Positions 31,060 to 42,672 of a DNA stretch of 45,610 nt are shown here, in pieces. How positions within the stretch are numbered: position 1 is the stretch's first letter; each line of letters opens with the position of its first letter. A program made the position numbers and the translations under genes. Origin of the DNA: a bacterium (GTDB lineage Bacteria; Patescibacteriota; Saccharimonadia; CAILAD01; BJGX01); contig JAKOQC010000249.1 in the NCBI GenBank assembly GCA_029778565.1, positions 1 to 45,610 on the forward strand, in the 5' to 3' direction. Below the pieces are notes generated by a model. That model saw only the letters and a program-made list of their open reading frames with translations. It made no database searches and had not been told where the DNA came from.

Positions 31060-32127
31060 ATGGCTAAAGACCCTGATATTAAACCATCTAAAAAGTCCTC
31101 GGCTAAAAAACCGAGTGCTAAAAAAACTACCCCTGCAAAAACCACGAAAGTAGGTAAAGACCAGAAGGGTACCAAGAACGTATCTTTTCAGGAAAAATTA
31201 CAAAAGCTTAATATTGATCCAGAAAAAAACAAAAAGACGCTACGTATTGTTGGTATTGGTGCATTAGTAGCTTTAATTGTAACAATTACAACATTCGGTG
31301 TACTTATTTATCGATACAAAATGAGTAATCGAGCAGTAAAGATTGCTAGCCGTGTAGTACCTTATCCAGTAGCTTCGGTGAATGGTAATATTCTCTACAA
31401 TACCGTCACCTACAATGACTATCTCTTTGAGCTTGCTTCTATCGAGAAGTTTTACCAGAGCCAAAACCAAGATCTTACGAGCACCGAAGGTAAAGCTAAG
31501 CTCGCTCAACTGAAAAACGATCTTATTACTCAGCTAGAAAATAACCTACTTATTCAGCAGCAAGCCAAACAAATGGGTATTACAGTTACCAATAAAGAAG
31601 TTGACGATCAGTTTAATCAGCTTGTTCAGAATGCTGGCGGACTCGATAAGGTGAAAGCAACACTCGATAAGCTCTACGGATGGTCAGTAGACGATTTTAA
31701 GCAAAAAATTCGTGATAGTCTCTTACAGCAAAAGGTTGGTAATAAAATAACTACCGACGAAAGCCTGAATGCTCCTGCCAAGGCTCAGGCAGAATCTATT
31801 CTAAAGCAAATACAGGGTGGTGCTGATTTTGCAGCTCTAGCCAAACAGTACAGCCAAGATGGTAGTGCTGCCAATGGCGGTGATCTTGGTCTGTTTAGTA
31901 AGGGTCAATTAGACCCAGACTTTGAAGCTGCTGCTTTTGCACTCCAGCCAGGACAAACCAGTGGTATTGTTAAGACCCAGTATGGTTACCACATTATTAA
32001 GGTTACCGACAAGCAGGGCGACCAGATTCGAGCAAGCCACATTCTTATTAAAGGAATCGATCTCGACTCTTGGTTGCGCGATCAGCGAGCCAAAGCCCAT
32101 ATTGTTCAGTATTTCTTCCCCAACTAA
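31060..32127 (+). CDS. Membrane-anchored parvulin foldase (PrsA/SurA-like)
   Basis: A 355-aa protein with a very Lys-rich N-terminal ~65 residues, one transmembrane helix (about 67-88) and a SurA-N/chaperone helical domain. A PpiC rotamase domain follows, around residues 240-330 (FAALAKQYSQDGSAANGGDLG, quoted to 20, then GYHIIKV). It probably assists folding of exported proteins such as pilins. SD AAGGAG precedes the ATG. The long cationic cytoplasmic tail replaces the usual lipobox signal peptide. Confidence 0.9.
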   Translation: MAKDPDIKPSKKSSAKKPSAKKTTPAKTTKVGKDQKGTKNVSFQEKLQKLNIDPEKNKKTLRIVGIGALVALIVTITTFGVLIYRYKMSNRAVKIASRVVPYPVASVNGNILYNTVTYNDYLFELASIEKFYQSQNQDLTSTEGKAKLAQLKNDLITQLENNLLIQQQAKQMGITVTNKEVDDQFNQLVQNAGGLDKVKATLDKLYGWSVDDFKQKIRDSLLQQKVGNKITTDESLNAPAKAQAESILKQIQGGADFAALAKQYSQDGSAANGGDLGLFSKGQLDPDFEAAAFALQPGQTSGIVKTQYGYHIIKVTDKQGDQIRASHILIKGIDLDSWLRDQRAKAHIVQYFFPN

Positions 32128-33832: not shown

Positions 33833-33856
33833 AGAAAAAACCCCACTTCTGTGGGG
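33831..33856 (-). terminator. Displaced terminator of tRNA-Asp
   Basis: On the minus strand, CCCCAC / GTGGGG (loop AGAA) is followed by six T residues. It lies only about 10 nt beyond the left attachment core. In the reconstructed empty site it would directly follow the CCA end of tRNA-Asp, so it is read as that tRNA's original terminator, now about 8.7 kb away. Confidence 0.75.
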
Positions 33857-33865
33857 TGCTTTCTA

Positions 33866-33872
33866 TGGCGGG
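33866..33872. other. attL core of the integrated element
   Basis: TGGCGGG, identical and in the same orientation to 42596-42602 at the 3' end of tRNA-Asp. The two 7-bp copies bound the element. The match is short, as expected for a serine integrase, and is supported by frame continuity and the displaced terminator. Confidence 0.75.
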
Positions 33873-33997
33873 GGCTAGTTGTTACATTGAGAACTTGTGC
33901 TAATGACTTTGAGGGTTATGAGTTTGATAATTTGTTTGACGCTATTGAAGAGCACGAGCCAAGTCTTGCCATATTACAACCAGCATCAGCTCAATAG
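33866..33997 (+). pseudogene. Detached 3' end of the serine recombinase frame
   Basis: Starting at the core with TGG CGG, the frame runs open for 43 codons to TAG at 33995-33997, 19 nt before the convergent XRE gene. The recombinase reads the same core in the same phase. In a circular form its frame would therefore continue here, giving a native acidic C-terminus (with FDAIEEHEP). In the integrated state this piece has no start codon of its own, except a possible TTG at 33887. Confidence 0.7.
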
Positions 33998-34016
33998 GCT
34001 ATAGCTCACTTGTTGA

Positions 34017-34238
34017 TTAGAGCCTTTTGAATAGGTCTACTAGCGATATATTAAGAGCCTTTGCTATCTTATGGATATTCCCAATACTCGGATTGCGTTT
34101 ACCTTGCTCAATAAACCCAATATAAGTTCTATGAACATCAATTATATCTGCTAGTTTTTCTTGCGTAATACCCGTTTTCTTACGAACTTCAGATATTCGC
34201 CGACCTAACTCTTTTAAAAATAAATCTTCAGAAGCCAT
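34017..34238 (-). CDS. XRE family transcriptional regulator
   Basis: A 73-aa protein that is almost entirely one Cro/CI-type HTH domain (LGRRISEVRKKTGITQEKLA, then TYIGFIEQGKRNPSIGNI). This is the size of a minimal Cro-like or immunity repressor. It is divergent from the membrane protein gene, whose promoter carries a palindrome in the spacer, and is probably the element's regulator. Confidence 0.9.
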   Translation of the reverse strand: MASEDLFLKELGRRISEVRKKTGITQEKLADIIDVHRTYIGFIEQGKRNPSIGNIHKIAKALNISLVDLFKRL

Positions 34239-34264
34239 ACATACAGTTTGTCGCTATTAGCCTG

Positions 34265-34293
34265 TTGCTTCTACAGACAGCTTGTAGCATAAT
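34265..34293 (+). promoter_or_regulatory. Promoter with operator-like palindrome in the spacer
   Basis: TTGCTT (34265-34270) and CATAAT (34288-34293) are 17 bp apart. The whole spacer is the palindrome CTACA-N7-TGTAG (34271-34287). A dimer bound there would block polymerase. A partly similar TACAGTTTGT lies at about 34242-34251, near the XRE start. Confidence 0.55.
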
Positions 34294-34329
34294 TATGAAT
34301 AAGAAATAACAATTTAAGGAGAAGATGTA

Positions 34330-35085
34330 ATGAAAAATGAAGAACACAAAGCTGCCCCTGCACAGCCTGAGGCAGCTCATCACCCTGTACAAGCACCTAC
34401 CAAAACAAACACCCTAGCAATTTGGGGTTTTATTCTAGCTATCTTACTGCCACTTATTGGCCTAATTTTATCAATTATTGCAATTTCACAGATTAAAAAA
34501 TCAAATGAGGGCGGCAAAGGTTTAGCCATAGCTGGCATTGTCATAGCAAGCATTTTGCTCTTTTTCCAGCTAATTATATTTGTTTCATTGGTTAATGGGG
34601 CTAAAAATATTTCAACAACGACAAGCTCAGACAAAAGCTCACAGTCATCTTCAAGCAACTCAGGTTCAAAGCCTGCTGAAGTAGCTAAAATTGGCCAAGC
34701 TGTGCGAGATGGTAAGTTTGAGTTTACTGTTACGGGCTTCAGCTGTGGTCAAACATCAGTCGGGACAAACCAATATCTAACCAAGCAAGCTCAAGGTCAG
34801 TTTTGTATGCTAAATCTTAGTATCAAGAACATTGGCGACCAAGCTCAAAGCCTATTTTCTGGCAATCAAAAACTACTTAACGGCAGCACCCAGTATTCTG
34901 CAGATGATACGGCTACTTTGTATGCTGGGCCATCAGGCTCAACTTCTACTTGGTTCAACGACATAAACCCTGGTAATAGCGTTTCAGGCACAATTGTCTT
35001 TGATGTGCCAAAGGGCGTTACCCCAACCCAGGCTGAATTGCACGATAGTGCGTTTTCAGGTGGTATAAAAGTTAACTTGCAATAA
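34330..35085 (+). CDS. Membrane protein with DUF4190 and DUF4352-like domains
   Basis: A 251-aa protein: a Pro/Ala/His-rich start, two transmembrane helices (about residues 28-52 and 68-90) with the DUF4190 pattern (GGKGLAIAGIVIA), a Ser-rich linker and a secreted beta domain. The beta domain resembles DUF4352, an Ig-like fold common in surface lipoproteins (MLNLSIKNIGDQAQSLF). SD AAGGAG precedes ATG 34330. It is the likely target of the XRE repressor. Possible roles are surface exclusion or host contact, which is inference. Confidence 0.8.
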   Translation: MKNEEHKAAPAQPEAAHHPVQAPTKTNTLAIWGFILAILLPLIGLILSIIAISQIKKSNEGGKGLAIAGIVIASILLFFQLIIFVSLVNGAKNISTTTSSDKSSQSSSSNSGSKPAEVAKIGQAVRDGKFEFTVTGFSCGQTSVGTNQYLTKQAQGQFCMLNLSIKNIGDQAQSLFSGNQKLLNGSTQYSADDTATLYAGPSGSTSTWFNDINPGNSVSGTIVFDVPKGVTPTQAELHDSAFSGGIKVNLQ

Positions 35086-35089
35086 GTTA

Positions 35090-36442
35090 CTATTTGCCAG
35101 GCATTGAGCCGTCTTTTGGCGGCTCTTTTGCTTTTTGTTGTTTAAGATATTCAGCCATCTTCTTGCGACCCTCTTCTGTTCGACCAAGAGTAATCTCTTT
35201 CATCCCGTTTGACCATAACTCAACTACACCCTCACGCATCAACTTATTTATTTCTTGTGTTGTTGGCTTTGCTTCAGGCGTTGTTTGAAGTATTAGAGCC
35301 TTAGTATCTGCTACCGCTTTTTTGTTTTTGTAATGCAGATGTACTAACTCGCCGATAAACTCGTCTTCTGGGATTGAAGGTATCGGTGGTTTCTCTAAGT
35401 ATTTAACTAGGAACGACTTATAACCATACCTACTTCTAATAACTTTAGTGACCTGAGCTAGGTCGCCAGCTACAACTACAAAGTCGTTCACTTCTATATC
35501 TGGTTTAGTCTTCTTGGTGTGTAGGGCCACAGGATAATCATTTTTTTTCACAAGGTCAGCACACATCTTGAGAAAACCATTTGTGTTGTGTATCCGCATC
35601 AAGTCTTTAGTGGCGTTAACAACGTGCAGTGATAGTATGCCAACTCTGCTCAGATGCAAATCTAGGTCGTCTAGGCTCAGATTACGGCTACCCGCAGAGC
35701 CTCCAGGATGAAGCGACTTGCTTTGACTACCCAGCGATACGTAGTGTGTCCTTAAGACAGCCTTTTGCTGTGGCTTCATTCTTGGAAAAACCGCTTGAAA
35801 CCTAAGGTTAAGAGACCGTAGGCTACGTTGAATTTGTCCAGTTTTAGATATATTTGCGTACCAGCACTTATTTGGGTCAAGATTTTTGGCAAGGCTGTCA
35901 GCTTGCTGTATTAAGTCAGCTTCTTGATATGCGTAGTTTGCATTTTCAGAGCCGTAATACTCCTTAATATCTGCCTGTGTACGTTGCAGCGACTTAAGCT
36001 CGTGCAGTACTAGGTAATGCTGATAATAGTCTTTGTTGTTTGCCAACCTAAACCCGACCAAATCAACCATAATCTCGGTCATCTTTCTTTGCCATAAGGC
36101 TAGCTCATCAATTCTAGATTGCAATACATTATCAGCAATTCGCTGCTGCTCGTCATTCAGCCCGTCAGGTATACCTTTAACACGACTTTCAACTATAAAC
36201 TCCGAGGCTTGCATCATACTCATACCAGTCTTTTCCACTTCGTTCAAAACGCCAAATAAGTAGTAGCCTTTTGGGTCGTGAGAATTTGGCCCGTGCATAA
36301 GATGGTATGAATTATTATCCCATCTTAGCTTTTTTCTTAGTTGAGCCGCACCTTTAAGGGGTATATCTAAAAATGCATCGTGACGCTTTTTCTCATCACT
36401 TTTACTAGGCTCGACTACTGGTGGTTTTGGTTTGTCGGTCAT
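35090..36442 (-). CDS. Hypothetical 450-aa protein, last gene of the cargo operon
   Basis: No family recognised. It is soluble, Lys-rich at both ends (the C-terminal helix is QQKAKEPPKDGS-like) and mostly helical in the middle. There is a beta-rich segment around residues 315-375 (DFVVVAGDLAQVTKVIRSRY) that could be a small barrel. It is the largest cargo gene, 21 nt after the DUF5680 gene, and therefore a candidate effector. Confidence 0.75.
   Translation of the reverse strand: MTDKPKPPVVEPSKSDEKKRHDAFLDIPLKGAAQLRKKLRWDNNSYHLMHGPNSHDPKGYYLFGVLNEVEKTGMSMMQASEFIVESRVKGIPDGLNDEQQRIADNVLQSRIDELALWQRKMTEIMVDLVGFRLANNKDYYQHYLVLHELKSLQRTQADIKEYYGSENANYAYQEADLIQQADSLAKNLDPNKCWYANISKTGQIQRSLRSLNLRFQAVFPRMKPQQKAVLRTHYVSLGSQSKSLHPGGSAGSRNLSLDDLDLHLSRVGILSLHVVNATKDLMRIHNTNGFLKMCADLVKKNDYPVALHTKKTKPDIEVNDFVVVAGDLAQVTKVIRSRYGYKSFLVKYLEKPPIPSIPEDEFIGELVHLHYKNKKAVADTKALILQTTPEAKPTTQEINKLMREGVVELWSNGMKEITLGRTEEGRKKMAEYLKQQKAKEPPKDGSMPGK
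35106..35136 (+). terminator. Terminator of the DUF4190/DUF4352 gene
   Basis: GAGCCG / CGGCTC with an 8-nt loop followed by T-rich sequence. It lies inside the 3' end of the convergent minus-strand gene. Confidence 0.6.
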
Positions 36443-36463
36443 ACATAACCGAGTTACTTTTGC

Positions 36464-36928
36464 TTATTCATCGACTACACCGCCAAAATAAAGCCCCTTG
36501 TATATCTCATCGTTGTTTTTAAGGATAATCTCTTCACCTACAAAGTTACTCATATCACCATTCCAGCTATTACGATATACTAGATTATCCTCAACATATT
36601 CCTTTGGCCCTCTGTAGGGATGTTGCTCAGGAGCTTTTAGTAAGGCTTTACGCAAGAATGCATAAACATCGTTTGAGGTTAACTTGGTATTATGAACCCA
36701 GCCACGGTATTGCATTGCCCATATAGGCTTATCATCTTTATAAACTACTTCTTGGCCAGCGTAAGGGTGACCGCCGTAGAAGTAGTCACAGAAATGCCAG
36801 TTGTCCTTGGTGTGATTAATAATATGGCCGCCGTCATCTGCTTTTTCAATCTTTACGGTTGGATTGCCGTATCCAGAATTATTAGCTTCAAATAGGTACT
36901 TTCTTACGCCCTCAATCTCTGCACTCAT
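36464..36928 (-). CDS. DUF5680 domain protein
   Basis: A 154-aa protein matching the DUF5680 pattern: an N-terminal helix, then WHFCDYFYGGHPYAGQEVVY, PIWAMQYRGWV and a PYRGPKEYV motif. The domain often occurs fused to XRE-type HTH domains, but stands alone here. Its biochemical role is unknown. The ATG overlaps the peptidase stop by 4 nt. Confidence 0.8.
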   Translation of the reverse strand: MSAEIEGVRKYLFEANNSGYGNPTVKIEKADDGGHIINHTKDNWHFCDYFYGGHPYAGQEVVYKDDKPIWAMQYRGWVHNTKLTSNDVYAFLRKALLKAPEQHPYRGPKEYVEDNLVYRNSWNGDMSNFVGEEIILKNNDEIYKGLYFGGVVDE

Positions 36929-37590
36929 ACTATTTTCCCACCTTTGATTTTTATTGGCTCGCTACCAATTGTGTATTGTTTTTCAGCTTCAACAACCACT
37001 GCAGTGTCGTCGTGCAGACCATAAATGAGACCATCATAGTTTTTGGCTACTTCTAGTAGTACTTCTTTTCGGTTGTTTGGGAAAAACTTACTACCTAGGT
37101 GTGGTTTGATAGCCAAGTCAACTAAGCTGAGGTATTTTGATACGCCATAATCGTTTTCTTCGCCGTAAATCTTTTGATAAGCCTCGGTTGAAACACGGTT
37201 ACATATAACCATAGAACCCGCACTACTACCGACGTATACTTTACTTTCCAAAAGTTTAGGAAGCAATTTATCAAAACCTGTCTTCTTGAAGATGCTCATA
37301 AGGTAATCGGTTTGACCGCCTACAACGAAGATTACATCTGCGAGTTTAATTCGTTTCTTCACGGTGTCTAGGTCAAGTGCTAGCAGGTTCACAAGCTCCA
37401 TATTGCCCTTGAAGTTCTTTTTTATGCGGTTTAGGTCATCTAACACCCAGCCGTGGTCGCCGTGCTCTACGGCGTATGCTTCGTTAATGACAGCAAAGTT
37501 AATTTTGTCCTGTGGTTTTCCAACCAAGTGAACACACTTCTCAATTATTGCAGGTGTATAAAAACCAGCAGAGGCTAAAATGAGCTTCAT
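36925..37590 (-). CDS. Peptidase S51 (dipeptidase E-like)
   Basis: A 221-aa protein, the usual size of PepE. It has the VGGQTDYLM loop and the nucleophile motif GSSAGSMV (Ser at about residue 123), with an expected His and Glu later (PHLGSKFF, HDDTAVVVE). The family cleaves Asp-X dipeptides or cyanophycin-like substrates. In this cargo operon it may be a metabolic gene or part of a defence module; neither is shown. It is coupled by 4-nt overlaps on both sides. Confidence 0.9.
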   Translation of the reverse strand: MKLILASAGFYTPAIIEKCVHLVGKPQDKINFAVINEAYAVEHGDHGWVLDDLNRIKKNFKGNMELVNLLALDLDTVKKRIKLADVIFVVGGQTDYLMSIFKKTGFDKLLPKLLESKVYVGSSAGSMVICNRVSTEAYQKIYGEENDYGVSKYLSLVDLAIKPHLGSKFFPNNRKEVLLEVAKNYDGLIYGLHDDTAVVVEAEKQYTIGSEPIKIKGGKIV

Positions 37591-37868
37591 TCTTGCTCCT
37601 CATTTAGTAGTGATATGATTTGATAACCATATTTTTCAATCTCTTCTTTGGTCCAAAAACTACCGTCCTTTGTTCTCCCGACGTATCCAACCTTACGACG
37701 TAGCTTGCGGCCAATGAGTTGCTTTGTATCAGTATCAATTTCGTTTAGCACTAAAATATCACCAGGCTGACAATCCCAGTCTGCAAGTCGTAGCTCATAT
37801 GTCTTCTCGCCACTGATTATTTTATTAAAGTATTCAGTAAGTATTTTTTTCTCAATTATGTTACTCAT
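37587..37868 (-). CDS. ASCH/DUF3850-like RNA-binding domain protein
   Basis: A 93-aa single-domain protein with the ASCH/PUA-like pattern: KILTEYFNKIISGEKTYELR, DWDCQPGDILVLNE and a final hydrophobic strand. ASCH domains bind RNA or act as small hydrolases; DUF3850 members are common in phages and plasmids. It overlaps the HTH gene before it and the peptidase gene after it by 4 nt each. Confidence 0.85.
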   Translation of the reverse strand: MSNIIEKKILTEYFNKIISGEKTYELRLADWDCQPGDILVLNEIDTDTKQLIGRKLRRKVGYVGRTKDGSFWTKEEIEKYGYQIISLLNEEQE

Positions 37869-38056
37869 TTTGCCTCTAAAAACTTCATTAAATCTTCACG
37901 CTTATAGCGTCGGACACCACGTACACCAATGCGGCTAGCCTTAAGGATGCCTTTTTTATCCCAGTTACGCAAAGTGTTTGGGTGCACCTGCAGTAGCTCG
38001 CAGGCTTGTTTTAGTGTTAAGTATTCTGGTAAATCTTTTTGCGACATATTCCTCAC
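37865..38056 (-). CDS. MerR-like HTH protein (excisionase/HTH_17 type)
   Basis: A 63-aa protein consisting of a winged HTH (YLTLKQACELLQVHPNTLRN, then GVRRYKREDLMKFLEA). Such stand-alone domains are either excisionases (recombination directionality factors) or small repressors. It begins with GTG at 38056, or ATG at 38047. A TATAAT box lies about 21 nt upstream on the minus strand. It is the first gene of the five-gene operon. Confidence 0.85.
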   Translation of the reverse strand: MRNMSQKDLPEYLTLKQACELLQVHPNTLRNWDKKGILKASRIGVRGVRRYKREDLMKFLEAK

Positions 38057-38129
38057 TTTTGCTCACATTACTATACAATTATACAAGAGAGTGATTGCCT
38101 GCGATAGAGCAGGTTTTAGAAAAGATGTG

Positions 38130-39290
38130 ATGAAAAAAGACGACAAACAATCTGGTAATCGCAAAAAGCCGCAGAAAAAGTCTGCTGGCAAGCCTTTGAG
38201 TGCTAAGAAAAAGCCAGCACCAAAATACTTTCTGGACCTTGAGGCTATTGGCAAAGAAAGCGAAGCCGAGAGCGGTATTGTGTTGCCAAAAAATCGTGGT
38301 TTAACCCTGGGCCAATGGCAGGAATTGGCAAAAAAAGACCCCTCGCTTCTTTCGTCACAAGAGGCTCGACAGCTAGCAGAAACAAATAAAATGGCTGCCG
38401 ATTTTGCCATACAGCTTTCTGAAAGATACGACTTTGCCAGCCTCTTTAAGACAACACCTGTCTTGAAAATGGTTGAGGATATTGGAAAGGCCGCAAGTGC
38501 AACAAAAGCTTTGCATATGAACCTAGCCATACCTGCCCAGCAACTTGTTAACTTTCAGCGTAGTATGACCATTACAAGCAGCGTAATTAGCCAGGTAATG
38601 ATTGATGCTGCCAATATGGCGAATATCACACATAGCCTGTTTGCAGGCTTTGAAAGTTGGCATACACAATTTATAAAATCTCTAAGTATAGATATTGCCT
38701 CGTTAGGCAGCACTATGGCCCGTATCACGGCCGTTGAGACGATAGATTTTGATGTATTGGAAATTGGCGAAAAAGACGGCCACATTGTTGTCAAAAGTGA
38801 AACAAGCCAGGTGCAGAGGATTGATGACTATGAGCTTGTTAGTAAGGCTAATCTCGACTTACTATTTACTGAATTTCGTGCTACACGCTCTGAACTTGCT
38901 GAGATAAAAGATTTAATCAATAAGGGTTTGCAACCTGGTATTTCTAAAATAGCATTTGCTGATGCAAAGTTTAAAAGAGAAGCCTCCAATCTGATAATCA
39001 ATGGCTTTGATGTGGTTGTTGGCCGTAATTCTAAGCAAGCACAGTTTTGTGAATTGTTTTTCAAATCAGAGGCAAATTTTAGCAAGAAGTGGGATATACA
39101 AGATTTTGTAAACGCAGCATTTGGTCTTCAAATCGGGCTAGATGGCAACGAAGAACAGATGTTAAGCCTTGTAAAAGGCTATGTTCACGCACTTAATCAG
39201 AAAATAGTTGCATCTACCAAGGGCAAATTCAAAGATTTTTTTGTACTTGTTAAACTAGAAGTTTATATTAACCCCGAATACACTTCCTAA
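38130..39290 (+). CDS. Hypothetical 386-aa element protein
   Basis: No family recognised. A strongly basic Lys/Pro N-terminal ~30 residues (KKDDKQSGNRKKPQKK) is followed by a long, mostly helical part without membrane segments or catalytic motifs. Near the C-terminus, an FKSEANFSKKWDIQDFVNAA-like stretch has a globular look. ATG 38130 follows a possible GTG at 38127, and no good SD is seen. The basic start suggests nucleic-acid contact, which is inference. Confidence 0.7.
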   Translation: MKKDDKQSGNRKKPQKKSAGKPLSAKKKPAPKYFLDLEAIGKESEAESGIVLPKNRGLTLGQWQELAKKDPSLLSSQEARQLAETNKMAADFAIQLSERYDFASLFKTTPVLKMVEDIGKAASATKALHMNLAIPAQQLVNFQRSMTITSSVISQVMIDAANMANITHSLFAGFESWHTQFIKSLSIDIASLGSTMARITAVETIDFDVLEIGEKDGHIVVKSETSQVQRIDDYELVSKANLDLLFTEFRATRSELAEIKDLINKGLQPGISKIAFADAKFKREASNLIINGFDVVVGRNSKQAQFCELFFKSEANFSKKWDIQDFVNAAFGLQIGLDGNEEQMLSLVKGYVHALNQKIVASTKGKFKDFFVLVKLEVYINPEYTS

Positions 39291-39314
39291 TCTGTAAAAG
39301 TCATTATTAAAAAA

Positions 39315-39337
39315 GTTTAAACCGTTTAAACAACGGT
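39315..39337. repeat. Nested palindromes before the Rep operon
   Basis: GTTTAAAC occurs twice, 39315-39322 and 39324-39331, one base apart, each a perfect palindrome. Overlapping them, ACCGTT (39321-39326) pairs with AACGGT (39332-39337). This could be an operator or part of a replication origin. Confidence 0.55.
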
Positions 39338-39346
39338 GTTGTTTTA

Positions 39347-39532
39347 ATGGTTACTATGCATCAAGAAAGTAGCCAGCAACCAAATAAGAACGTCGCTTTG
39401 CAAGATTTTATTGCCGAGCTTGGTCGAGACGAAGAAGCTAAAGCCAACATTGTTGGCTATCTTGATGTACTGATTGAAATGGACCTTGAATTAAAGGAAC
39501 AAGAAAGGATTGATGAAAATGGAAACACCTAA
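39347..39532 (+). CDS. Small acidic element protein
   Basis: A 61-aa protein, acidic and helical (FIAELGRDEEAKANIVGYLD), of no recognised family. ATG 39347 has no clear SD; ATG 39356 is possible. It overlaps the next small ORF by 14 nt and opens the Rep operon. Confidence 0.5.
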   Translation: MVTMHQESSQQPNKNVALQDFIAELGRDEEAKANIVGYLDVLIEMDLELKEQERIDENGNT

Positions 39533-39707
39533 AGAAATAGCAGACTATTTTGAGCGTCTGTGCAGTAAGTGTTTGCTTGTTGCTATAAACGAGTATCTTA
39601 GTCGGGCAAGCCACCAGGAGCTACGTGCTTTAAAAGCTCGTATCTATTTACTACTTGAAGCACCTTGCAAAACTGAAGAGTGCCAAGAGGATTGTAATGA
39701 AGATTAG
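39519..39707 (+). CDS. Small helical element protein
   Basis: A 62-aa protein: a helical start METPKEIADYFERLCSKC and a Cys-rich acidic end (APCKTEECQEDC). ATG 39519 is chosen because SD AAAGGA lies 9 nt before it. Its stop overlaps the SpoVG-like start by 11 nt. No family recognised. Confidence 0.55.
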   Translation: METPKEIADYFERLCSKCLLVAINEYLSRASHQELRALKARIYLLLEAPCKTEECQEDCNED

Positions 39708-40041
39708 CGAAGTAAATGTAGTGCCTATTAAACCGACTAACGGTTTGGTGGCTTTTGCGAGCGTGGTAGTTGATGAAAGCCTGTATCTTGGCTCAATTGG
39801 CATATACACCCGACCAAATGGCTCGTTTCGTATAACCTATCCAACTAAAAAAGTTGGCGTAAGAGAAATGAACCTCTACCATCCGATAAAACAGGATGTT
39901 GGCAAGCAAATTGAGCAAGTAGTATTAGAGAAATATCAGCAAATTTTTGAAAGAAGTGATGACAATGATAGACACAATAAAGCTAGTGGTAAAAATGGAC
40001 AGGGCACTCTCTTCAAGAGCGAACTTCCAGCCGACGCTTAA
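39697..40041 (+). CDS. SpoVG family protein
   Basis: A 114-aa protein with the SpoVG pattern: the start MKISEVNVVPIKPTNGLVAF, a LYLGSIGIYTRPNGSFRITY strand pair, a PTKK patch and the helix YHPIKQDVGKQIEQVVLEKY. SpoVG proteins are site-specific DNA/RNA-binding regulators, and element-borne copies are known. SD AGAGG precedes ATG 39697. It overlaps rep by about 83 nt. A role in regulating replication of the element is inferred. Confidence 0.85.
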   Translation: MKISEVNVVPIKPTNGLVAFASVVVDESLYLGSIGIYTRPNGSFRITYPTKKVGVREMNLYHPIKQDVGKQIEQVVLEKYQQIFERSDDNDRHNKASGKNGQGTLFKSELPADA

Positions 40042-41086
40042 TGCTATTAGTGAAGACTATTTTGGCTATTTCAAAGCGGTGTTAAACCCGTCAGCTATCA
40101 ATAAGAAGCTAGGTAAATACCAGCCTCGTTTGACCTATACCCAAAGGCCGAGAGGCTATCAAAGAGCCGCCTATGAGCTTGTTATTGAACTTTCCCTGCC
40201 AAAGATAGCTTATGGTAATAACTTTGACGAGCTTACTGATACTGATTTTCCTAGGCTTGTTAAACAACTGCGAGATACACTTAAAGAAATGAATATCTGG
40301 TTATTCACACACCAGCTAGAAGAAACCGAAGTGCGAGCCGTACACTACAGCAAAAACTTTGTTTTTACCGACTACACCTCGTGCTCGTCTGTTTTGCAAA
40401 TGCTTCGCACTGCAGATATTAGTAAAACGTATGATGTGCAAAGCACCGACTTTAGAAATGGCGGCTATGTTTTACACATACATTCTAACTCACTAGATAT
40501 TGCAATTTACGATAAGCTGGCTGACCTACAGCAGTCCAAAACTAGCGAAAAGCGAGCTATTGAAAAAGATAACTATGTACAGCTTGATATGCTTGACCTG
40601 ATTGCTCCGAAAAAGCCAGTATCTGTAATGCGGTATGAAGTTAGGCTAAACGGCAAGAAAAAGACAAGAGATGCTCTAGCAGCGGTTGGCTTTACTGAGC
40701 CACTTACGCTCAAAAGTGTTTACTCAGCAGAATTGGCTAAAAAGCTACTGCAAAACCACTGGCAAAACTTCTTTGACAATTTACCCAAGCTGGCACTAGA
40801 TACCGACGACCCAGATAAGGTGCTGGCTAATATCCTACGTTCTAAGGAGCTAACAGGGCCGACACAGGCCGCTGCACGGCTTGGTATGGCACTTCTACTC
40901 AAAGACAGTGAAGACCGCTACGTCAGGACACTATTTGAAAATCGTTTTGGCAAGCACGCCTGGGCACGGCTCAAGCCGCTTACTAAGCAACCTGCCAAGG
41001 TGCAATACAAGACGATTTTAAACATCAACAAGATGTTAGAACTGTTTGAACCAACAAAAATAGAAGACATAAAAGACGCAATATAG
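39959..41086 (+). CDS. Replication initiation protein (filamentous-phage G2P/Phage_CRI-like)
   Basis: A 375-aa protein that begins MTMIDTIKL, the start typical of G2P-type Rep proteins. It also has a conserved middle (NGGYVLHIHSNSLDIAIYDK) and VMRYEVRLNGKKK, comparable to the region VRFEARIKTR in phage f1 gpII. These are rolling-circle initiators of filamentous phages and related plasmids. The catalytic Tyr cannot be fixed by eye. The start could also be ATG 39965. It overlaps the SpoVG-like gene in another frame. Confidence 0.72.
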   Translation: MTMIDTIKLVVKMDRALSSRANFQPTLNAISEDYFGYFKAVLNPSAINKKLGKYQPRLTYTQRPRGYQRAAYELVIELSLPKIAYGNNFDELTDTDFPRLVKQLRDTLKEMNIWLFTHQLEETEVRAVHYSKNFVFTDYTSCSSVLQMLRTADISKTYDVQSTDFRNGGYVLHIHSNSLDIAIYDKLADLQQSKTSEKRAIEKDNYVQLDMLDLIAPKKPVSVMRYEVRLNGKKKTRDALAAVGFTEPLTLKSVYSAELAKKLLQNHWQNFFDNLPKLALDTDDPDKVLANILRSKELTGPTQAAARLGMALLLKDSEDRYVRTLFENRFGKHAWARLKPLTKQPAKVQYKTILNINKMLELFEPTKIEDIKDAI

Positions 41087-41137
41087 ATTGTTACTAAATG
41101 TTACTTAATGTTATATACTAATAGAGAAAGGACAATA

Positions 41138-42637
41138 ATGAAAATTAAAGCATTTTTAATCGCCAGAGTGTCGGATATTGACCAACGACAAGCCTTACCA
41201 GCTCAGATAAGGAAGCTCACAACCTATGCAGAGCAGCAAGGTTATGACTACGAGCTGTTTGAGTTTGATGAAACCGCCTATAAAGATACACGCAAAGAGT
41301 TTGGTAAAATTGTAAACGCAATACAAGCCTATCCAAAAGAATGCATTGTGGTTTTCGATAAAATAGACCGCTTGAGCCGAGATATGCATCAAGATGAAGT
41401 TAAAGCACTTAATAAGCTGCGTGATGCTGGCAAAATAGAGATACATTTTCCATCGGATAACTTATTTGTTCATAAAAATTCACCAGCTACCGACCTATTT
41501 CGTCTCGGCATTGGCGTTGTGTTAGCAAAATACTACTCTGATAGTATCAGTGACAACGTAAAGCGTCGTTTTGAACAGAAGCTAGCCGACAAAGAATGGC
41601 CAGGTAAAGCACCCATAGGCTATCTGAACCAGCGTATTAGCGAAAAAGAAACTACTATCGTTAAAGACCCTATACGCTCGCCATACATCATCAAGGCTTT
41701 CCAGATGCGGGCATTAGGTAAGCCATATCGAGCTATTGCTGCCGAGCTTCGCGAAGAGGGTTTAAAAAATAACACACCCAAACAAAATCCTATTTGCCAA
41801 CGTCACATTGAGCAAATACTGAAAAACCCGTTTTATCACGGCGTTATGCGGTATAGTGGCAAGCTTTACCCACACAAGTACGAGCCACTAATTAGTCGTA
41901 AAATGTTCAATAAGGTACAAGAAATGAACGACCAGCGGACCAATAATAAGACCAAGACACAAAATGCCGACTATACCTTTAATGGACTGCTTAAGTGTGG
42001 CAGTTGTGGTTGTAGTGTTTCTTCTTACACTGCCAAAGGCAATGTTTATATGCATTGTTCAAAGGGTAAAGGGCCTTGCAAGCAGCCGCATACCAAAGAA
42101 AGCGAGCTTGTGCCCCAAATGGCTGAGTTACTTGGTAGGCTAGAGATGAATGAAGACATTGTAAACTTTGTAATTGGCGAGCTACGTAAGCATCACGATG
42201 ACCAACAGGTTTATTATGCCAACTCTATTGAGCAAACACGTGCTGAATACGACAAAATACAGAAAAAGCTACGGGTTTTGTACGATGATAGGCTAGATGG
42301 GCGTATTACTCTCAATGAATACGACGAATATGTTAAAGACCTAAAAGCTAGGCAAGAGCAATTGGATGAGCAGCTCGTAAGCCTTACGCATAACGACAAA
42401 AGCTTTATGTTAACCAGCTCATACCTGTTAGAGATAGCCACAAAAGCCCCTAAGCTATTCCAAAGTTCTAAAGCGGCTCTAAAATCAAAGCTATTACACT
42501 TTGTACTTTCTAACCTTGAATTACACGATAAAAAGCTCCATTTCAATCTAAAAACACCCTTTGATGTAATCGCAGAGTGTTCTCAAAATGCTGATTGGCG
42601 GGCCCGACCGGATTTGAACCGGCGATCTCCTCCGTGA
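41138..42637 (+). CDS. Large serine recombinase, C-terminus altered by integration
   Basis: A 499-aa integrase with the resolvase catalytic domain (ARVS, nucleophile Ser12; DRLSRDMHQDE), a recombinase domain (about 160-265), a zinc ribbon (CGSCGCS near 286) and a coiled coil (about 360-420). ATG 41138 follows SD AGAAAGGA. After residue 486 the frame enters the attachment core and antisense tRNA-Asp, ending RARPDLNRRSPP. This tail is a by-product of the integration site. In the circular form the frame continues for 43 codons now at 33866-33997 (529 aa in total). Confidence 0.92.
   Translation: MKIKAFLIARVSDIDQRQALPAQIRKLTTYAEQQGYDYELFEFDETAYKDTRKEFGKIVNAIQAYPKECIVVFDKIDRLSRDMHQDEVKALNKLRDAGKIEIHFPSDNLFVHKNSPATDLFRLGIGVVLAKYYSDSISDNVKRRFEQKLADKEWPGKAPIGYLNQRISEKETTIVKDPIRSPYIIKAFQMRALGKPYRAIAAELREEGLKNNTPKQNPICQRHIEQILKNPFYHGVMRYSGKLYPHKYEPLISRKMFNKVQEMNDQRTNNKTKTQNADYTFNGLLKCGSCGCSVSSYTAKGNVYMHCSKGKGPCKQPHTKESELVPQMAELLGRLEMNEDIVNFVIGELRKHHDDQQVYYANSIEQTRAEYDKIQKKLRVLYDDRLDGRITLNEYDEYVKDLKARQEQLDEQLVSLTHNDKSFMLTSSYLLEIATKAPKLFQSSKAALKSKLLHFVLSNLELHDKKLHFNLKTPFDVIAECSQNADWRARPDLNRRSPP
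42596..42602. other. attR core in the tRNA-Asp 3' end
   Basis: TGGCGGG, the reverse complement of the last seven bases of the tRNA gene (three acceptor bases, discriminator and CCA). It is the second copy of the core at 33866-33872. Confidence 0.75.
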
Positions 42638-42672
42638 CAGGGAGGCGTGTTAGACCACTTCACTACGAGCCC
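42596..42672 (-). tRNA. tRNA-Asp (anticodon GTC)
   Basis: A cloverleaf on the minus strand: acceptor GGGCTCG/CGGGCCC, anticodon stem CCTCC/GGAGG with loop CTGTCAC (GTC) and TpsiC loop TTCAAAT. Discriminator G and CCA are encoded. It is intact despite the inserted element on its 3' side, because the core regenerates the 3' end. Its own terminator now lies at 33831-33856. Confidence 0.96.

Follow-up and report, generated by a model that had tools for sequence, protein, structure and literature searches.

A tRNA-targeting serine recombinase of Patescibacteria whose coding sequence probably spans its own attachment site

Does the integration of a mobile element at a tRNA gene exchange the C-terminus of the element's own recombinase? 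This question was raised by a 45,610-nucleotide stretch of Saccharibacteria-like (Patescibacteria) chromosomal DNA (hereafter, the window), in which an 8.73-kb element (33866-42602) is bounded by two copies of the heptamer TGGCGGG, one at its left end (33866-33872, attL) and one at its right end (42596-42602, attR). The heptamer is the complement of CCCGCCA, the 3' end of tRNA-Asp(gtc), which lies on the minus strand (42596-42672; 3' end at 42596) and on which the recombinase gene of the element (41138-42637, plus strand; alternative ATG at 41108) converges. This gene reads the right core as TGG CGG G (...NAD-TGG-CGG-GCC...), enters the antisense strand of tRNA-Asp, and ends WRARPDLNRRSPP*, resulting in an integrated form of 499 aa, of which 486 residues are its own. 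At the left end, the same core in the same phase opens a frame of 43 codons (33866-33997, plus strand; WRGLVVTLRTCANDFEGYEFDNLFDAIEEHEPSLAILQPASAQ*), whose stop codon (33995-33997) lies 19 nt before the stop codon of an HTH_3 (Cro/C1-type) regulator gene (34017-34238, minus strand). Joining the two ends as a circle would restore a single frame of 486 + 43 = 529 codons. The core positions, the reading into antisense tRNA-Asp, the 43 open codons, and the 529-codon frame had all been put forward in a preliminary description of this locus, and each was borne out.

The insertion point was located by an empty-site test, in which the two flanks were joined in silico and the product was searched against relatives. 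Uninterrupted sites, with the match continuous across the junction, were found in nine related genomes (G007, G008, G004, G012, G011, G009, G002, G013, and G015). In G007, the hairpin comes immediately after tRNA-Asp, and the upstream gene resembles the window gene at 31060-32127 (comparison by eye). In the window, the element is immediately preceded on its left by a hairpin and a run of T residues, oriented like tRNA-Asp (33834-33857, minus strand); this is the original tRNA-Asp terminator, contiguous with the tRNA gene in relatives and now 8.7 kb away from it, such that the insertion point of the element falls between tRNA-Asp and its own terminator. These empty sites indicated that the attachment site is real and is located at the base pairs given above, to within the length of the core. 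The attachment site assigned in the preliminary description, for which an empty site had been named as a check, is thus fixed by the uninterrupted sites together with the motif displacement between attP and attB described below.

A terminator-like hairpin antisense to the 3' end of the recombinase gene (42547-42582, minus strand; -10.2 kcal/mol, T-rich tail) is probably the replacement terminator of tRNA-Asp. Within the last 80 bases before the tRNA, antisense hairpins of this kind were detected in 20 of 25 elements, compared with 46 of 167 control stretches from the same genes, and 22 of 25 displaced flanks carried a terminator-like hairpin. Judging from these predictions, the recombinase gene seems to contribute through its 3' end not only half of attP but also a substitute terminator for the tRNA.

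Reconstruction of attP and attB yielded common cores of 6-9 bp. The antisense T-arm motif of attB, GGAnTCGAACC, recurs in attP exactly 5 bp further out; at this offset, a mean of 5.32 motif positions matched, compared with a maximum of 4.20 in 1000 shuffles (right half-sites only). The left arms were not clearly symmetrical. Dyad symmetry slightly favored core positions 4-5 over 5-6 as the crossover dinucleotide, and either choice (4-5 or 5-6) produces a palindromic dinucleotide for some tRNA. In LI integrase, the zinc-domain motif is likewise shifted by 5 bp between attP and attB (Rutherford et al., PMC3783163), so the element appears to behave as a standard serine integrase system in which attB is the 3' half of the tRNA gene and the T-arm is the proposed B' binding motif; recombination between attP and attB is itself inferred. 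Recognition of the T-arm would account for the ability of a single family to use many different tRNA genes.

Pfam assigned to the recombinase a Resolvase domain (6-150), a Recombinase domain (181-267), and a weak zinc ribbon (21.3 bits, under its cut-off of 25.3), and coiled-coil helices were predicted at residues 339-420 by AlphaFold. The AlphaFold model of the single window recombinase was poor (mean pLDDT 47), confident modeling being limited to the coiled coil and portions of the catalytic domain. The catalytic residues S12, R10, R78, and R81 were invariant in an alignment of 33 sequences, and the recombinase domains were of the serine type only, leaving no sign of the tyrosine recombinases that characterize the Mx8 and SSV families. 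Domain order, catalytic residues, short core, and 5-bp displacement all met what is expected of a large serine recombinase (serine integrase), to which class the enzyme is assigned on sequence grounds. The A118/LI integrase structure aligned with residues 170-468 only; the severed part comprises just the residues after 486, and the tail starts about 19 residues beyond the end of that alignment. The integrated form therefore keeps every canonical domain and loses an appendage only, and the severing of the catalytic domain that marks SSV-type integration is not found here.

Taken from the window alone, the 7-bp repeat and the 43-codon open frame would be weak evidence, and the left-end frame and the right-end read-through could be a coincidence in a decaying element. 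A tail profile built without the window selected the frame at 33866 among 658 TGG-started window frames (E 5e-7; next best, 0.94); the same profile failed to select this tail when the two closest relatives were also left out, and the window's own tail is divergent. Scanning with a profile identified homologous tails at about 30 left ends, and the typical tail consists of W-[LCQR]-x-x-[VA]-[DE]-x-[LF]-[RQ]-[TN] followed by 25-35 further residues. Counted only past codon 10, which excludes the DNA-binding (att) motif, the differences at codon positions 1/2/3 of the tail amounted to 33/19/59 (p = 1.5e-5; seven non-overlapping pairs). After the stop codon of the tail, the corresponding counts were 142/145/142, and nucleotide identity was mostly near background. 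The small group to which the window belongs showed weak periodicity only (49/34/56). The tail codons have no start at their head in the integrated state, and the coding constraint therefore comes from the joined state. With these homologous tails, the codon constraint, the 5-bp displacement, and the agreement in phase reported below (36 of 36), the homologues refute coincidence, to which we give practically no weight.

Not all conservation in the tail is of protein origin. The first ten codons are also constrained as DNA, with the first ~30 nt forming the P' arm of attP; [LF][RQ][TN] largely reflects the T-arm DNA motif, and the case for protein rests on the later ~25 codons alone. The tryptophan that opens the tail (W487) was invariant in the 33-sequence alignment, which reached Legionella and faecal scaffolds, and this invariance is in part forced by the CCA end. 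Subject to these points, the comparison supports the interpretation that the tail codons evolve as protein and that integration removes a selected C-terminal tail. The preliminary description had emphasized the exchange of an acidic tail for a basic one; neither the charge of the tail nor the basic replacement was conserved, and we dropped the charge change as the point of the swap.

The codon constraint also bears on whether the overlap is no more than compact packaging, in which the location of attP within the 3' end of int keeps site and enzyme together in transfer, the tail packs onto the zinc domain, and the two forms act alike. The catalytic, recombinase, and zinc domains all lie upstream of the junction, as this reading would have it, and Mx8 integrase is still active with a changed C-terminus and altered specificity, according to a review (PMC6070905). 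We nevertheless regard packaging alone as a rather weak candidate, as constraint past the att motif implies that losing the tail usually carries a cost in one or both states. The tail might instead act as a stability signal, making the circle-encoded enzyme short-lived or scarce until integration removes the signal. The same logic is documented for the repressors of mycobacteriophages, some integrases end in -AA (PMC8092301), and several of the tails found here end in LLDA, LLEA, LLNA, or VTA. Others end in -LI, -PV, -AQ, or -NR; the tail ends are therefore unconserved, and constraint lies along the tail rather than at its end. An ssrA-like degron was considered and found inconsistent with these ends, and a stability signal in general is unlikely in our judgment.

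Among the tRNA-adjacent homologues of the class, the recombinase enters the tRNA at TGG, the complement of CCA, in phase 0 in 36 of 36 cases, at seven tRNA types (Asn, Gly(gcc), Gly(tcc), Asp, Trp, Ser, and Gln). The preliminary description would have been refuted by recombinases that stop short of the core, and none was found among these 36. More distant homologues added tRNA-His, Glu, and Leu and were mostly in phase 0, the exceptions being L110 and L018, which are out of phase, and L106, a broken gene. These cases are not independent events, yet about ten tRNA targets are involved. The agreement of all 36 in phase and the selection of 33866 by the profile form the basis on which we consider the arrangement to be more than chance. 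As in the Mx8 and SSV systems, the integrase frame continues across attP and is altered by integration.

Junctions that join a recombinase to a tail were found in two settings. In tandem elements, the inner recombinase is joined to the left end of its neighbor and regains a tail (G309 contig 28, G719 contig 14, and G478 contig 4); these copies carry a neighbor's tail, not their own. The other setting is a complete plasmid of Legionella adelaidensis (NZ_LR134433.1), whose integrated recombinase reads on into tRNA-Asn. At its left end, 105 bp survive from the 3' end of an older recombinase, joined in phase to the tail WLPLVSILRTQRREEV..., a case that is independent of metagenome binning. No free circular copies were found in the viral contigs, plasmids, or phage records searched, and two faecal "phage" scaffolds, L147 and L148, proved to be integrated, at tRNA-Glu and at tRNA-Leu (the Leu case being among those counted above), respectively. 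Neither outcome that would have refuted the preliminary description was seen; its suggestions on function (a bias in direction, an effect on stability, or coupling of activity to the integrated state) have the standing of conjecture. Most loci are metagenome-assembled and no circular form was seen in reads, which counts against the structural claim. Even so, the arrangement in which the gene spans attP is found, by sequence comparison, to recur across the phylum and to reach Legionella, and we consider it very probable that the recombinase coding sequence spans its own attP and that integration severs the tail.

Several other loci are of interest. At L086, L068, L065, L078, and L055, several left ends with tails are stacked at one tRNA, representing repeated insertions and remnants. 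At L052, L074, L075, and L078, the right junction follows TGG without a recognizable tRNA gene; these could reflect secondary sites or tandem junctions that have decayed. Outside Patescibacteria, a Neochlamydia sp. S13 plasmid carries a relative of the recombinase that has a broken frame and terminates next to tRNA-Tyr (L150, 3001-4400). In G000, a genome of ~40% G+C, a stretch of about 8.4 kb with 55-65% G+C (C206, L012 11500-19921; C136, L013 1-1263) ends in a different serine recombinase and abuts tRNA-Ser, and the two contigs appear to represent its opposite sides; the frame of this recombinase meets TGG in phase 1. Its G+C content suggests that it was acquired from a donor rich in G+C, unless the binning is at fault.

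The remaining genes of the element provide candidates for its control and replication. A small HTH_17/excisionase-family protein (37865-38056, minus strand; TIGR01764 above cut-off) is a candidate recombination directionality factor and recurred in 25 other loci, compared with 24 for a SpoVG-like backbone protein (39655-40041, plus strand) and 28 for a conserved backbone protein of 379 aa (39947-41086, plus strand). Of 19 members of the 379-aa family, three matched the Phage_CRI/G2P replication protein family (best E 1.9e-4), and the window copy gave no family match. With its invariant HxH, Y, and RxExR residues, the protein is possibly a new branch of rolling-circle initiators, and rolling-circle replication of the circle is weakly suggested by the three G2P matches. 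The cargo (34330-39290), within which the HTH_17 gene lies, comprises a DUF4352/DUF4190 membrane protein, DUF5680, peptidase S51, ASCH/DUF3850, and unknown proteins of 450 aa and 386 aa.

The retention of an excisionase-like protein and the tandem copies both bear on suicidal integration, in which the integrated form would be inactive and excision would need tailed enzyme from another copy or a tandem array, in an SSV-like manner. For archaeal tyrosine integrases, this model is established (PMC8371274), and in the present family left ends are often stacked and elements often arrayed in tandem, with arrays restoring the tailed frame. It is an improbable account here, however, as an appendage rather than the catalytic domain is lost and the HTH_17 protein is kept in so many other loci. 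We instead propose that the circle would encode the full enzyme, consisting of the catalytic domain, the recombinase domain, and the zinc domain with its coiled coil, followed by a W-led tail of ~35-46 residues. Crossover would take place in the core at the tRNA 3' end, with attB recognized partly via the T-arm, which would deprive the tail codons of a start at attL and add a short arbitrary peptide from the antisense tRNA at attR. The tail, situated just past the zinc domain, would favor integration or prevent excision, such that a single round would turn the enzyme into a version incapable of re-integration and perhaps free to excise together with a directionality factor. Mutations of phiC31 integrase that abolish the binding of its RDF are located downstream of the coiled coil, one of them near the C-terminus (PMC5814800); by inference, an appendage at this position may be well situated to influence where the coiled coil lies or whether an RDF gains access. 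That the tail favors integration or bars excision is inferred, and we hold it with slightly less than even confidence; our estimates for this function and for the packaging, stability, and suicidal readings overlap. The broader proposal, that tRNA-targeting serine integrases throughout the phylum use integration as their own directionality switch, with the attP arm coding for an integration-promoting tail, is more tentative still.

Among systems with which the element may be compared, Mx8 also has tRNA-Asp as its target, and A118 targets comK, with its attP outside the coding frame. Self-altering integrases are already known. In Mx8 (IntP/int), the integrase gene contains attP, and int acquires a new 3' end on integration (PMC6070905), the gene being cited elsewhere as extending across attP (PMC4383910); its integrase is treated as a tyrosine integrase by Islander, is confined to a single phage group, and is without the serine domains or the tail of the present family. 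SSV-type integrases of archaeal viruses and plasmids have attP within int and a gene split on integration, but they are tyrosine recombinases whose catalytic domain is separated and whose gene is inactivated (PMC8371274). Closest in enzyme class, the streptococcal IME_Spy2096_SNF2 encodes a serine integrase with the recombination site within its own gene; it is one case, its target is the ICE gene snf2 rather than a tRNA, and the passage on it discusses neither conservation nor function of a tail (PMC5357655). A118/LI integrase shares the domain order and the 5-bp displacement (PMC3783163), whereas its aligned protein stops at the end of the zinc domain. Integration-dependent immunity of mycobacteriophages resembles the present case in that integration cuts a regulator gene at attP and changes its C-terminus (PMC8092301), but there the repressor gene is split, often with a C-terminal ssrA-like tag, and the integrase is of the tyrosine family and intact; here, attP lies in the recombinase gene and the tail ends are unconserved.

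The novelty lies in the use of tRNA genes as targets, in the conservation of the tail, and in the spread of the arrangement through the phylum. No report of tRNA-targeting serine integrases or of a conserved severed tail was found in open-access papers; most subscription papers lay outside the search, and an earlier description cannot be excluded. According to Islander (2014), no serine integrases were known that use tRNA genes as targets, and a 2021 review described self-disrupting recombinases as exclusively archaeal (PMC8371274); if our interpretation is true, both statements need revising. Recombinases deposited from integrated copies would lack their true C-terminus, which matters for the mining of genome-engineering tools. 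Integrase directionality is usually ascribed to protein conformation and a separate directionality factor, whereas in this family the product of the reaction would itself rewrite the enzyme.
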